A stretch of DNA of 64,000 nucleotides from Cliona cf. orientalis (Eukaryota > Porifera > Demospongiae > Clionaida > Clionaidae): NCBI GenBank assembly GCA_963930775.1, contig OZ005697.1:62001-126000 (forward strand). Direction: 5' to 3'. The translations under genes were made by a program, and so were the position numbers. Of this stretch, positions 1 through 35,825 are shown one piece after another. The notes under the pieces are model-generated. The model was not told the origin of the DNA. It saw only the letters and a program-made list of their open reading frames with translations, and made no database searches. Each line of letters opens with the position of its first letter. The stretch's first letter is position 1.

Positions 1-1747
1 CCCCTCTCGTGTGTCTGCTTGTGCAGGGAGTCGTTATCGGAGGAGTCTAGTGGCAGCAAAGGAGGGAAAGAGTGGGAGGGGTGAGAGAACGCAGCGGCAG
101 GGATGTCCTCCAGGCTACTGGCTCCGCCCACTCCTCCAGCATTTCCTGTCTTCAGTGGTTTGTGTCGCAGTTTGTGAATGTGATACTCACCAACGTTTGG
201 CCTCTGTATGCAAAACAATGACCCTAATATAATAAACACCAATAGAACACTGTACAGCTGTCCCTCTTATGCAATAGGTGCCTAAGAGAAAGCTGAGTGC
301 ATATACAATGAAATGTACATGTACCTGGTTGAGTAGCTCTCTCCCCAAGCCTAGGAACTGGTTGAGAGCAAGAAATGTTACCCTCTGAAGACGCAGCATG
401 ATGATCTGCCCAGAGACACAAGTAACCAAGTTATAATTATTGATAATGTGTTAACTCACTTGGACCATTCGCAGCATTGAGTCAGGATTGTCTTCAAAGA
501 ACTTGTCAAATGCCTTCCCACTGATTCTGTGAGAGAGAGAGAGAGGATAATACTCAGCTCATGATGACACTGAGCTGACTCACTGTAGCACATAGCTGTC
601 TCGCATGGCTCGAGCTGTGACCGTCTTGAATGGTTTGGGGTGACCAGTGATTGCATCGAGAATGCTGAGCATACTGTGAACACTTTCACCTGGCCCCACC
701 TCCTTCAGGGGGAGCTCAGTACCATCCTGGGGGGCAGGGGGGCAGGGAGGCAGGGGGGAGAATTGGAAAAAATACCCATACAATATCATGACTTATACAG
801 AGCATAAATTTTGTAATAGTACATTTGTGTGATATTATTTTTCCCCTCACCGACTCCATGATGTAGACCTTGAGCCTTCCATTTTTGACAACATAGATAC
901 TGTCGTCCAGCTGTCCGGGCCGAAACAGGATGGCCCCAGAAGGTACAAAGGTCGTCTCCACGTGCTTACACAGTTCCATAAACAGTGGTTTCTCAAAATG
1001 TCCAAATGCACGGACACTCTTTAGAAGATAAAGCACCTCAGATGGTATGTTACTGTCTCCCTGGGTGATTAGGTAATAAATTATTAATAAATTTAATGTT
1101 AACTAACTCTGGGGGAGTGTTTTTGTCTCACTTCTAGAGGGTCTGCTTCAAGAAAGGCTGCTGGCGGCTCTTTGTACAACTGACGCTCGGGAATATCAGG
1201 TCCCTGGAGAAATCTAAGCACAAAGATAATCATCAGAATGCATTGGAAATCTCATTGCAGGTTTTGATAACAGATAGCTCTGTGCTTGCAAAACACATCA
1301 ACGATGTTAGATGTATACCTTTTAGCAATATTGACTACTTTCTCCCTGGGCCGCCTCCTGAAGTGTCCCAGTTCCATTCCAGCCTTGCGGATCATCCGCT
1401 TCCCATAATAGCGAACAATGTCTCTCTTTCTAATCCTCCCTCCAGGTGCCTGACTCGATGCAACAGAGGACTCTAATAGAACATCAGATCAATTCTTAAA
1501 CGCCTGACTATCGTCTTGCATGAGCTAAATGGCTACATACACACGTGCACATACCTCCCTCTACTAGTTCACTCGGCGGCTTAGCTCGCCTCAGAAGGAT
1601 CCATAGCAGCACGGATAACAGAAACACCGCGAAGATCACGCCCATCAAAAGCTTGTGATCGACACAGAATAGCTGTATAGCGACTATGGTAGTCCGTATA
1701 GCCTCCCCAAGCCTCCAACCTCGCAGAAGTTCAAGCACAGACTCCAT
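1..1747 (-). CDS. PNPLA6: PNPLA6/7-like neuropathy target esterase, 5' part (partial)
   Basis: Encodes the N-terminal third of a patatin-like lysophospholipase of the NTE family, an ER-anchored enzyme that deacylates (lyso)phosphatidylcholine. Exons read on the minus strand: 1555-1747, 1319-1472, 1132-1213, 851-1060, about 584-726, 460-525, 328-413 and one running off the window below about 154. The first exon carries a single hydrophobic membrane anchor ([20 protein letters not shown]). The second has the basic stretch [18 protein letters not shown] typical of the family. Later exons form the first cyclic-nucleotide-binding-like domain ([58 protein letters not shown]). Start is the first Met, just before the anchor. 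The catalytic patatin domain lies outside the window, so activity cannot be judged. PNPLA6 and PNPLA7 are vertebrate paralogues; the gene here is probably pro-orthologous to both. Confidence 0.9.
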
Positions 1748-30800: not shown

Positions 30801-31070
30801 CACCATCCACAGAAATACTAAAAAAAATAATATTGGTGGCTAATTTCGACGTAACTAGGCTCAGGTCATCACTAGCATAGATGCTAGTAAAACAATAATA
30901 TTATGTGGAATTTCTAATTAGTGCCCATAGTATACAAGTGATATTTTGGCCCACCGATCTCCGACTACTAGTCCACACTGCGGGCAGATCATGTCCCCCG
31001 CGGCGTGGTCCTCGATCAGCGAGTCATCGGGGTGGTAGGGACAGCGCAGAACAGCGGTACCAGACGCCAT
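27091..31070 (-). CDS. GTF2B: General transcription factor IIB
   Basis: RNA polymerase II initiation factor that bridges TBP-DNA and polymerase. The exon at about 30987-31070 has the zinc ribbon C-x2-H...C-x2-C ([24 protein letters not shown]) and flows into the B-reader/linker exon [20 protein letters not shown]. Further exons: [38 protein letters not shown], then cyclin fold 1 ([55 protein letters not shown]) and cyclin fold 2 ([72 protein letters not shown]). Length and order are as in other animals. Introns are long for this window (up to about 0.7 kb) and carry microsatellites. The promoter side abuts the Tc1/mariner element at 31293. Confidence 0.96.
27809..27852. repeat. (CT)n microsatellite in the last GTF2B intron
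   Basis: 44 bases of uninterrupted CT on the plus strand. Confidence 0.95.
29943..30035. repeat. ~32-bp tandem repeat in a GTF2B intron
   Basis: Three units containing CCAGGGCTCCCCCCTCCCTC then CATAATATTC, the last more degenerate. C-rich on the plus strand. Confidence 0.8.
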
Positions 31071-31352
31071 CGCGATCGTCTTCAGAGAGAAAGTGTTAGA
31101 AGTAGGTCAGTGTAGCTCGATCATCGGGAGCACTGCTATTAAATATTCCTTTTTAGAAGATAGGATAAATTTTAATAATAAATGAGAGTTGTATTGGTGG
31201 TGATTGATCGAGAGCTCCGAGTTTAGCTGTCTCTGTCGATGCTGAGGCAAAAATAGCTGACCTCAGCTGATTTTACGGTTGCTTTAATAATACAGGAAGT
31301 TTGGGCAATCTTGCAAACGGGACTTGACGCGCGCAAGCCCCACACTCTGAGC

Positions 31353-32476
31353 ATGCGCATACTGGCGGTCAATGTGATGGCTGGGGAAACTCAGGGAGGC
31401 TCGCTCCGTCGTGGAGTTTTTGCCACTGTGATCAATAATCTCCGTGCCCCTGGAGGTTCGCAACCGATTCAGGTCGTCCAATCGGGTCCGGCTACCACTG
31501 TAAGTTGTTGGGAAAACTGTACCTTTTCATCATGAGTGTGCATTTATTAGACTCAGATTATTACAGTGGCCGTCACGGTTTACTCCAGTGCCTGCTCTCT
31601 CCCTTTTCCTTCCTCCCTTCCTCTCTTCCTCCCTTCCTCCCTCCCCCTCCCCCCCCCCTCTCTCTCTCCCACCTTCCTACTTTTGTGCAGCCCATTGTGA
31701 AAAAATATAGATACAAGATAACCATACTGAATAGTCCTAAGAGAGGGAAGAAAGCAATTACACGACAATTACATCATTTTGATGGCAAATTCCGTTCTGT
31801 TACGGATATAAAGGCCCATCTGATGGAAGAACTAGGAGAAGAGGTGCCTAACTCCATCCATTTTGATGTTGGATATTACGAAAAGCGTTCTATCAAAAGT
31901 TGGTTAGTCACTTCGGAAGATCTTGAACTTATGTATGCATCTCTGAAATCAGAGGAAATACCACTATGGTGTGATGCTGAGTCTCACGATGATAAGAAAT
32001 TGGATGGGAAAGGCAAGAAAAGGAGTGGTGGGACATCGTCAAAATTGGAGGAAGAAGATGTTGATGAGCTCTTCAAAACCCTTACTGACAAGCATGGTGA
32101 TAATTACAGTGTACCACAGCGAAGACTGTGGGCTCGAACTATCCACTGTGGGACCCACGATAGTTTCGATTCTCCACCTGCTCTTCCAATGTTTGGGCCA
32201 CCACCTAAACGCCAGAAGAAGGAATCCTTTACTGATGCAATGGCTAGTGTACTTGCAAAAGCTATCAATCCTTCCACATCTGGTGCTCAGGAGGATTCTG
32301 GCTCTCAAGCAAACCAGCCATCTATTGCAATATCCCCGGGAAAGAGTGTGGATTTGCGCATGAAGAATTTGCAACAACTACGTTTTATTCAGCAGTTGTT
32401 TGATGACAACATTTTGTCACAAGATGAATTTCTTGAGCAAAAGAAGAGTATTTTGGAGGCACTGCGTAAGCTTTAA
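31353..32476 (+). CDS. Second gene of the Tc1/mariner element, PB1-like and SHOCT-like protein
   Basis: Two exons, 31353-31499 and 31691-32476, join in frame across a GT-AG intron with a strong CT-rich tract, giving about 310 residues. The ATG at 31353 lies inside the inner TIR block. The product starts MRILAVNVMAGETQGGSLRR. The middle, about residues 50-145, looks like a PB1- or ubiquitin-like fold (KKYRYKITILNSPKRGKK, FRSVTDIKAHLMEELGEEVP, HFDVGYYEKRSIKSWLVTSE, EEIPLWCD). A basic acidic-mixed linker with a possible nuclear signal (PPKRQKK) follows. The end (LRFIQQLFDDNILSQDEFLE) resembles the SHOCT type of short oligomerisation domain. Domain calls are by eye. Function unknown: perhaps a transposition cofactor or a passenger. 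No DNA-binding or nuclease motif is visible. Confidence 0.75.
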
Positions 32477-32578
32477 TATTTTGGAGGCACTGCATAAGCT
32501 TGAAAATTAATTGAAACTGTGGACAAAACATTCAGCATTAATTGTGTAATAATAAAATTATGTTATTAGTGTTAATTA

Positions 32579-33565
32579 TTAATTATTGTACACTGTACTG
32601 TCAGATATCCATCCTTGGCAGTCGCTTGGTGTAATGCATGAGAATGCAGCTAAAATATCTGTTTCAAGGTCGTCTTGGTAGGTTGTTTCCATGCTCTTGA
32701 GTAATGATTTGACCTTTGAGAAGCATTCCTCAATGGGGTTTAAGTCAGGGGAATAAGGGGGCAAGAAATGGACAAGTGCACCGACCTCAGTGATCATGGA
32801 TGCAACTCCTGACACATGGTGAACCGAGCAGTTGTCTAATATGACAATGCTATTAGGGTTTGTACCATTGAAGGGCATGAGTGTCGGCAATAAATCTCTC
32901 TGGATGAAGTCCAGAAAGTCATCACCATTGACAGTACCCCGAACAACCTTCATCGCAAGAATGCCTTCCTCGTTCATGGCAGTAATTACAGATACTCTTT
33001 CTCCTCTTACTAAGAGCTTGCAAGATCTTGGGGGTTTCCCCCTCAGACCATATCCATACTTCCTCATAGCATCTCGGCAATCTGAACCAGTCTCATCCAC
33101 AAACACTAGCATGTGGGGCTGATACAAGGATACATCAATAGCAAATTGCTCACGTAGCTCTTTATCCTGCTGCTTAGCTACAATCTGCATTTTTTGACGA
33201 GTGAAGTTTGATTTCTGGAGGAAAGTGCACAGGGAAGAAACGCTGACACACACACCAGTAAGTATGAACACTTCTGTCTGAAGCTCGCGTAAATATATGC
33301 CTGGTCGTTGTAGAACTTCGTGAAGAATGGTGAGCTGCACAGTTTTAGTGAGCTTTTTATTTGGTCGGGCATCCTTGGGATAAGGTCGCTTCTGTACGCT
33401 TCCTGTAGATTTGAACAGGGAAACAATTCGGCTCACTGTGGAAGGATCGACCCCTAAGTTGCCAGCTACAGTTCTGAGGCCTAATCCCATCGCTTCCCTC
33501 TGCCATACTATTCTCCATCGTAGATCTTCGCTGTAGGCATTCGTTTTCCCGGGATTGATCGACAT
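32579..33565 (-). CDS. Tc1/mariner (IS630-type) DDE transposase, intact
   Basis: A 328-residue single-exon transposase. The N-terminal helix-turn-helix part reads YSEDLRWRIVWQREAMGLGL and VAGNLGVDPSTVSRIVSLFK, followed by a second paired-like helix region (LTKTVQLTILHEVLQRPGIY). The catalytic acidic triad is in MLVFVDETGSD, IVILDNCSVHH and PPYSPDLNPIEECFSKVK. There are 34 residues between the second Asp and the Glu, so it is DD34E. No stop or frameshift interrupts it. Its start is about 90 bp inside the right TIR. Its stop faces the stop of the second gene. Confidence 0.95.
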   Translation of the reverse strand: MSINPGKTNAYSEDLRWRIVWQREAMGLGLRTVAGNLGVDPSTVSRIVSLFKSTGSVQKRPYPKDARPNKKLTKTVQLTILHEVLQRPGIYLRELQTEVFILTGVCVSVSSLCTFLQKSNFTRQKMQIVAKQQDKELREQFAIDVSLYQPHMLVFVDETGSDCRDAMRKYGYGLRGKPPRSCKLLVRGERVSVITAMNEEGILAMKVVRGTVNGDDFLDFIQRDLLPTLMPFNGTNPNSIVILDNCSVHHVSGVASMITEVGALVHFLPPYSPDLNPIEECFSKVKSLLKSMETTYQDDLETDILAAFSCITPSDCQGWISDSTVYNN

Positions 33566-33806
33566 CGTCGTTTTGAAAAACGCGGTGATTCCCGGTTTAC
33601 ATTACGCATGCTCAGAACGTACGGATACGTGCGCATTTGCAAGATTCCATAAATCTGTAGTTGCCGCGGCGCCGCCCACTGTACTAATAATTAATGTGTA
33701 CGCGCACGCGTAATAAGAAATTAATGTTTTGGCGCGGGCGGGAAAGTCATTCAAAATTCAAAACTTAGATAATTTGCTGCAATATTATTATTGTGGTTGG
33801 TTGTGT

Positions 33807-35825
33807 TCAGAAGTCATCATCAGAGCCGGGCTGTAGGTGCTGGTCATCATGGAGGCCATCTCCTAGTGCCCCCTCTCCCTCATCTTCTCCTTCCTCCAGG
33901 TCAAGACCACTGCCAGTCGAGAGGGAGCCACCTGACTCATCCTGAAACATAGTGAGTAGTAATGTTATCAGTGCAGTGAGTGCTAATGCTCTTACATCAT
34001 CCGTGGCTATGTCATCCCCTCCAGTCATTGAGCCTATCACTCGAGCCTCATCTATAAAAGTGAAAGTATAGAATATCTGATGAGAGAGGGAGGGGGGGTA
34101 AGGTGTTAATTATTATGCACCCCGTTTTCCTCCTGGCATGGCTCTGGGGTAAGCCCCTACAATATCTGCCTCATCTCCAAACTCGTCCCCTCCCATCAGT
34201 AGCATCTTGTCGCTGATAAAGTCATCTTCTCTCATTCTCTTCTCAGCCTCAGCCATTCGAAGCTGAACCTTACGCAACGAACTTTCAGTCTCCTAAAAAT
34301 CAAGACTTCATTAGTCTGGCTACCAATTTATACTTAGAAATTTTTTTGCTCACTTCCATTCTGTCTCTCTCTGCCTTGTGGTACTCATCGAGCTGCTGCT
34401 CCAGGTACGACACGTTGCACTGTTTCTCCACGTAGCTCTGATATTGCCGACTCAGCTCTTCCTCGAGTCTCTCGTACTCGTCCATGAACGCTGGTCTGAC
34501 GTTGGCCAGGCTGCGGAGACGCTTCTGGTTCCTCTCCAACTCTTGCTTTTTCTTCTCTATCTTCATCTCAAGGTTGGCCTCATCGCTGGCCAAGTTATCC
34601 AAACGATGACTCACACGCTGAATCTCAGTCTATCAGCGAAAAAAGTAATAATATTACGTATAATTTATTATACCTATACATGTATATACGGCTCAAAATT
34701 ATGAACTATTTCTGCAGTAGCTAGCTAGTGGGCAAGAATATGGTAGAGTACATGTTAGAAGATTTACATTGACTGTATTGATGGACTGGTGGACTCCTTC
34801 CTCTAGCTTGTCCATCTCCACGGGACGAGAGATCGCCAGTTTACGAGCTTCCTGCAAAATAAATTCATTTAATATTTCTTTCTACCTCTAAATTATTTTG
34901 TACGGACAGACATACCCTGAGAGCCACTTCTTGCCTCAGTAGCTCATAAAGCTTAGCTCCTTTGGATGTGATCTGTGACGCTAGCTGACGACAAGCCTTC
35001 AGATCAGTTGCCTAAGGGAAAACACAATACAATGATATCAAATCAACCTAGATCATGGTAGTCAGTATGAACATACTTTGCTGGATATTTCCACAGCACT
35101 AGAGCCTAGCTCACCACTGCTGTCCTGAAATACATTGCATACTTCAATGAAGTTGTGGAGTTATGGAAAAAACCAATGTTGCCATGATGTTACCCTATCC
35201 AGTTGGTTCGTTTTCATTGCTGAGTAGAGGAGAGAGGCAATCTTGAGCAGCTCCTTCACTGCATAGCCATCCGCCATGTACAGCTTCTTAGTATTCAGTT
35301 TAATGTGTGCCTTGCTCGCCTAATGACAACAAAGAAGATAAATACAAAGTCCCAACAGACACCACTGTGCATGCAGGGATGATTCAATATTCACAGTTCA
35401 GAAATTATTACAATGTTACCATAAACTGTGCCAGGGATTGGATGAATATCACTCTGTCCTGCTCGGTATCTACATCACTAGGAAGATCGGCCATGGGGTC
35501 GTATCTGCAATAATAATATTATTCGTAGTAAATAATATCATAATAATTATTATTATGGTGCATATCCAAAGGATTTCTCTGGGATATCTGACCTATTGAC
35601 AAGCCAGATAAGTATTTCTGCCACCAGAGGAAAGTTGGGTGTTCTGAAGTTCTCCATCGATATGAGCCGTGGGTACCCAAGAGCACGCATCATCTCAGTG
35701 AAATCTGGAGAAGAAAGCATAAAGGTAGGGAGAAGTATTCTAAATGAAGCACATCTTCGTTCTGCTTCTCTCTCTAGATGCTAGTTGCTATGATCGCACT
35801 TACTTCTTAAATCTCTGTACGACAT
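33807..35825 (-). CDS. CLUAP1: Clusterin-associated protein 1 / IFT38
   Basis: Intraflagellar transport complex B subunit needed to build cilia. The first exon encodes MSYRDLR and joins the next, which reads [20 protein letters not shown]-like sequence with a calponin-homology-like fold. A later exon carries a [12 protein letters not shown]-like stretch. The coiled-coil exon 34300-34614 is diagnostic ([60 protein letters not shown]). The acidic C-terminus contains [11 protein letters not shown] and ends GSDDDF, matching the family tail. About nine short exons. Head to head with the TMEM249-like gene, sharing a 203-bp promoter that contains an X-box. Confidence 0.95.

Follow-up and report, generated by a model that had tools for sequence, protein, structure and literature searches.

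Results

A two-gene element with TA-flanked inverted ends

A Tc1/mariner element of 2365 bp was located at positions 31293..33657 of a 64,000-bp stretch of the Cliona cf. orientalis genome (contig OZ005697.1, positions 62,001 to 126,000), which is referred to as the window and corresponds to C9:62001-126000 of the 216.8 Mb in 149 contigs that were searched. The element holds a DD34E transposase gene on the reverse strand and a second gene on the forward strand, here called the passenger, which converge on a gap of 102 bp. The presence of this second, conserved gene in most relatives of the element in the same genome suggests a two-part transposition machine.

Copies of the TA target site adjoin the element on the left (31291..31292) and on the right (33658..33659). 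The left terminal inverted repeat, CAGGAAGTTTGGGCAATCTTGCAAA, occupies 31293..31317 on the forward strand, and the right one 33636..33657 on the reverse strand, where the window element has, near the tip, 3 bp less than its four closest relatives. Two blocks are common to both ends: the first, AATCTTGCAAA, lies at 31307-31317 and reversed at 33636-33646, and the second, TCTGAGCATGCG, at 31346-31357 and reversed at 33605-33616. The left copy of the second block contains an ATG (31353), and we take its GCATGC to be a DNA site and not a gene start.

Searches with the passenger and the transposase revealed four further near-identical copies (C2:13.07M, C1:12.35M, C9:7.16M, and C1:27.2M) of 2340-2371 bp. 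The five copies have unrelated flanks and the same ends. TA borders every one of them left and right, giving a TA target-site duplication in 5/5 copies. The 26 bases formed by TA and the left repeat minus its last A had five exact matches in the genome, all of them in these two-gene copies, and the reversed-pattern control had none; the right end had four exact matches (control 0), since the 3-bp difference excludes the window copy. The boundaries are thus placed beyond chance, since five copies have the same ends within five unrelated flanks with TA at each side, and since exact end matches number 5 and 4 against 0 in the controls. An earlier note, made from the window alone, had described TA-flanked inverted repeats with two common blocks, and both the sequence and the four other close copies bore this out. 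It had also named in advance several copies with both genes between the same ends as support, and the presence of nothing but the transposase in all further copies as refutation; all five copies carried both genes. The two genes therefore moved together, and recently.

Apart from the 3 bp at the right end, only the intron distinguishes the window element from the copy at C2:13.07M, through one substitution and one 1-bp gap. The transposase frame is broken in C9:7.16M, C1:27.2M, and C1:12.35M, and the passenger frame is broken too in C1:27.2M. Allelic duplication in the assembly may account for some copies of the wider family, but, judged by their flanks, not for the five window-type copies.

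At two or three mismatches, the left end plus TA had 17 further matches in the genome. Eight of these belong to four two-gene elements of a sister subfamily. The other nine lie more than 11 kb from any listed passenger or transposase, so that the sister type also has relatives that are decayed or reduced to their ends. At C10:3643948-3645695, two sister-type ends face each other across 1.75 kb, and neither gene is listed within 600 kb of them; this may be a non-autonomous copy that has lost its interior. Seven further ends of this type, at other sites, likewise have no listed genes within 11 kb.

The transposase

The transposase gene (32579..33565, reverse strand) is an uninterrupted frame of 328 codons with DDE_3 and helix-turn-helix (HTH) regions. 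Its Pfam matches were DDE_3 (E 4.1e-31) and HTH_23 (E 2.2e-7, above the cut-off), with HTH_SB (4.2e-6) below its own cut-off, and the family profile matched the PAI subdomain of Sleeping Beauty (8.7e-4). Residues D157, D244, and E279 are invariant in 21/21 aligned transposases, with 34 residues between the latter two, and a profile search recovered five solved relatives, all of them chains of Sleeping Beauty, SETMAR, or Mos1 mariner. The open frame, the DDE_3 match, and the invariant triad agree with the intact DD34E transposase previously proposed. Elsewhere, an IMG/VR contig (L070, 139-1161) carries a full-length Tc1-like transposase that is ~30% identical, with no passenger match beside it.

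Structure of the passenger gene

The passenger is predicted to consist of two exons on the forward strand: exon 1 (31377..31499; 41 codons from a conserved ATG at 31377, or 49 if counted from 31353) and exon 2 (31691..32476; 261 codons and stop), separated by a phase 0 intron of 191 bp (31500..31690; GTAAGT...TGCAG). The donor reads ACT/GTAAGT and the acceptor TTTTGTGCAG/CCC, the slash marking the splice site; three of the five close copies have GTAAGT at the donor, and the remaining two have GTATGT and GTAGCT. Exon 1 is 96-100% identical in the four other close copies, and that of the sister subfamily is likewise of 123 nt. The intron is supported by the density of substitutions, which in both diverged copies is higher than in the exons (18/183 intron vs 20/933 exon positions, P 5.5e-6, in the first; 12/161 vs 21/925, P 0.0016, in the second), and by two sister copies, where splicing from a GTAAGA donor to a CT-rich acceptor would join an exon 1 of exactly 123 nt in frame to the next. 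On these comparisons, we take the predicted intron to predate the split from the sister subfamily. The existence of a second, convergent, intron-bearing gene, as put forward in the earlier note, is in line with these results.

The start of the gene probably lies elsewhere than first thought. Both sister copies begin with MAESTVPRGVFATVINN (MAEST..), which aligns with the window sequence MAGETQGGSLRRGVFATVINN from ATG 31377; in neither copy is the repeat-block ATG in frame with this start. ATG 31377 is therefore taken as the probable start and the one at 31353 as probably not real, so that the product has 302 residues and not 310. The proposal of a start codon inside the terminal repeat, and the link between mobilization and expression that was drawn from it, are accordingly both probably wrong.

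In several other subfamilies the passenger is a single uninterrupted frame with a different N-terminal stretch, and no intron was seen there before the PB1 part. Downstream of the window gene, AATAAA at 32551..32556 (forward strand) is a possible polyadenylation signal. The last 28 bp of the gene, including the stop, are tandemly repeated once at 32449-32504 with 93% identity.

Predicted domains of the passenger protein

The product of exon 2 is laid out as a predicted PB1 fold (31703..31981, forward strand; exon 2 residues 5-97), basic linkers, middle helices, and a SHOCT-like C-terminal segment (32390..32455, forward strand; exon 2 residues 234-255). Structure prediction gave a beta-grasp of the order bb-a-bb-a-b, as in PB1, whose nearest solved folds include p62, NBR1, Par6, and PKC-iota, so that the PB1-like middle noticed earlier recurs as a predicted fold. 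In profile searches with 24 family members, the Pfam PB1 model was matched by one member (E 0.016) and not by the window passenger. Pfam SHOCT was matched by 22/24 members with E no higher than 1 (lowest 1e-6), in support of the SHOCT-like end first noted; the window passenger itself reached E 0.0047 and 17.1 bits, below the cut-off of 27. The 25 Pfam families matched at E up to 1 by the 24 members did not include Myb/SANT, of which a diverged form is possible, and none of the matches was to a recombinase or nuclease family.

Clusters of basic residues resembling nuclear localization signals (NLS) are conserved in the passenger family and point to a nuclear location, while the PB1 and SHOCT-like parts suggest self-association. 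An acidic OPCA-type motif is a feature of PB1 domains, and the passenger alignment, by its column counts, does not preserve it intact.

Pairing of the two genes across the family

Family counts are lower bounds biased to the best-scoring loci, as only part of the candidates was scored. Passenger queries gave at least 242 merged loci genome-wide, and transposase or DDE_3 queries at least 166. A convergent passenger was present within 2.5 kb at 159 of these 166 transposase loci, where ~1.3 pairs were expected by chance. In an extended set, with loci added chiefly from a more distant transposase query, 168/179 listed transposase loci were paired with a convergent passenger, and neighbors less than 1 kb apart were convergent in 163 cases, divergent in one, and tandem in one. 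The surroundings of the 30 best matches to each gene were merged into 36 stretches, all 36 of which contained both genes, and paired passengers reach down to 24% identity with that of the window. Four of the 42 initially unpaired transposases were fetched, and three had a convergent passenger; the fourth did not (L062), and there a 526-codon open frame with a transposase C-terminal stretch (1-1578, forward strand) adjoins a decayed transposase without a passenger match. Conversely, inspection of 8 among the 81 passengers with no listed transposase showed that 8/8 adjoin a convergent transposase or its remains, which does not support the captured host gene that had been considered at the outset. 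The window element is best explained as a recent member of a large and old Tc1/mariner lineage of the cut-and-paste type.

Inverted pairs starting with TACAG outside both genes were found in 26/40 elements (score 18-29, maximum 30), when a score above the best of the same element's own 20 shuffles was demanded; as the search itself required TA and CAG, these letters are no independent proof for the wider family. The elements with such a pair are 2147 to 3051 bp long, and a common end form of the wider family is near CAGCGGTTTGCA..TTCTTGCAAC. The same search gave no convincing pair in the other 14/40 elements, some of whose stretches probably end before the left tip. At C13:3713586-3718369 (L011, L014, L040, L047), two distinct members of the family adjoin each other head to tail; they appear to have one TA in common, one having inserted beside the tip of the other.

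Co-descent and selection

Distances between passengers correlated with those between transposases (r 0.892; 22 intact pairs, 18 representatives), and 0/10,000 permutations gave a value as high. The two trees have 12/19 splits in common, four of which only join near-identical copies, compared with at most four common splits in 2000 label shuffles. Every passenger split with support of at least 0.9 recurs in the tree of the transposases; the passenger tree lacks four splits that are well supported for the transposase. The two genes thus form an old unit, which has moved and descended as one.

Comparison of the window element with the sister subfamily gave proportions of nonsynonymous and synonymous differences (pN and pS) of 0.155 and 0.827 for the passenger, the synonymous sites being saturated, so that the ratio is not exact and lies far below 1; for the transposase, the corresponding corrected values (dN and dS) were 0.135 and 1.86. 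Both genes are under purifying selection, with the passenger diverging somewhat faster (median pN 0.45 vs 0.37, over 50/231 pairs).

Genomic surroundings

The genes flanking the element are eukaryotic, as judged from their sequences: on the left an exon encoding a TFIIB zinc ribbon (30918-31070, reverse strand; Pfam E 1.7e-10, PDB TFIIB 2.7e-13), and on the right CLUAP1 (34303-34614, reverse strand; Pfam E 2.9e-31, PDB 7.4e-21). The element lies 222 bp from the first exon of the TFIIB gene, with CLUAP1 on its other side, and therefore inside the presumed upstream region of TFIIB.

Discussion

The role of the passenger

With moderate confidence, we favor the reading that the passenger is a nuclear, self-associating cofactor of the transposase and that the mobile unit is the convergent gene pair. 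The DD34E transposase would bind the inverted ends through its HTH region and cut and paste the element at TA, while the passenger, with its PB1-fold domain and C-terminal helical hairpin, would enter the nucleus and self-associate. There it may raise the local concentration of transposase, bridge the two ends, or bridge to a host chromatin factor. The passenger would then be expected to contact the transposase and to be needed for transposition, and a cofactor role would mean that both genes must travel together. Because the transposase keeps its own DNA-binding region, the help of the passenger would be of another kind, such as assembly, synapsis, or host contact.

PB1 domains mediate interactions in signaling and autophagy adaptors, and the main rival explanation is that the passenger faces the host, countering silencing or degradation or docking on a host PB1 protein, outside the transposition reaction. 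The nearest solved folds (p62, NBR1, Par6, PKC-iota) agree with such an adaptor module, as do the faster divergence of the passenger and the DNA-binding region that the transposase already has. The conserved NLS-like clusters point to the nucleus instead, and the OPCA-type motif is not intact. This explanation, although a serious one, is considered less likely. The passenger could also be a self-limiting regulator, inhibiting the transposase by mixed oligomers and kept for limiting damage to the host; convergent genes 102 bp apart would allow antisense or read-through control, and the predicted association parts would serve such oligomers. An inhibitor acting in cis should, however, be lost by faster-spreading copies, yet 168/179 loci keep the passenger, and this role is considered improbable.

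That the passenger is a host gene recently captured as cargo, or a chance neighbor of the transposase, is contradicted within this genome and retains very little probability. It is spliced like a host gene, Tc1/mariner elements have one open reading frame (ORF) as a rule (PMC8533490, PMC10379824), and inspection of 8 of the 81 unpaired passengers leaves 73. Against this, pairing extends throughout the family down to 24% passenger identity, the two genes descended together, no free-standing copy was among the eight inspected, and several subfamilies showed no intron before the PB1 part. Equally improbable is a cargo of benefit to the host, through which host selection would keep the element: purifying selection on the passenger is the sole point in its favor, and the many divergent copies, of which some are decayed, follow the transposase tree, as would be expected if selection acts on the element itself.

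Comparison with known systems

Tc1/mariner is commonly taken as the model one-protein transposon. The present element resembles the IS630-Tc1-mariner group of DD34E type in its TA target, its inverted ends starting with CAG, and its HTH and DDE_3 transposase. Described members of the group usually have one transposase ORF, as a rule intronless (PMC8533490, PMC10379824). A single ORF is usual but not defining, and the second gene in 5/5 copies and 168/179 loci departs from this rule.

PIF/Harbinger elements have two genes of their own, of which the second encodes a nuclear protein and both are required (PMC2836001, PMC9179366), and the two gene trees are congruent (PMC9179366). Their second protein binds the ends, and in the zebrafish element the transposase needed it to enter the nucleus; for the rice pair in yeast, neither protein altered the location of the other (PMC2836001). 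The element described here is similar in its two genes with congruent trees and, from the basic clusters, probably in the nuclear location of the second protein. In contrast, PIF/Harbinger belongs to another transposase superfamily with 3-bp target copies, and its second protein is Myb-like and DNA-binding, whereas here the transposase is of DDE_3 type, the target copy is the 2-bp TA in 5/5 copies, and the second protein has PB1 and SHOCT-like parts without a recognized DNA-binding domain. The chances appear balanced that this is the first known two-component Tc1/mariner machine of animals, in which the transposase of the lineage depends on an element-encoded PB1/SHOCT-like polymerizing cofactor whose origin is independent of that of the Myb cofactor in PIF/Harbinger.

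Ciliate TBE/Tec elements likewise combine a Tc1/mariner-type transposase with further ORFs in one element (PMC7325037), but they have three ORFs, with a site-specific recombinase in Tec, compared with two genes and no recombinase among the Pfam matches here. KolobokP is also a DDE transposon with a second gene, which encodes a His-Me homing endonuclease (PMC9587614); it is of the Kolobok superfamily, and the present passenger has no nuclease among its Pfam matches. Among the titles and abstract openings listed from the open-licence literature, which for one search covered 12 of 289 matches, no description of a two-gene mariner with such a protein was present, while an uncommented consensus of such an element may exist in repeat databases such as Repbase.

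The PB1 module is known for filaments and adaptors, and the plant MUSTANG MUGB genes are of Mutator type. In MUGB, a PB1 domain is joined to a DNA-transposon product (PMC8616336), a context similar to that of the PB1 fold predicted here; MUGB is domesticated, with its PB1 domain encoded by an additional exon of that one gene, whereas the passenger is a separate gene within a mobile element. A lineage that keeps a second gene over deep divergence is an exception to the one-ORF rule of Tc1/mariner, and offers a direct way to learn what Tc1/mariner transposition gains from a cofactor. As far as the matches listed show, a PB1 module encoded by a separate gene of the mobile element would be new for the Tc1/mariner superfamily.
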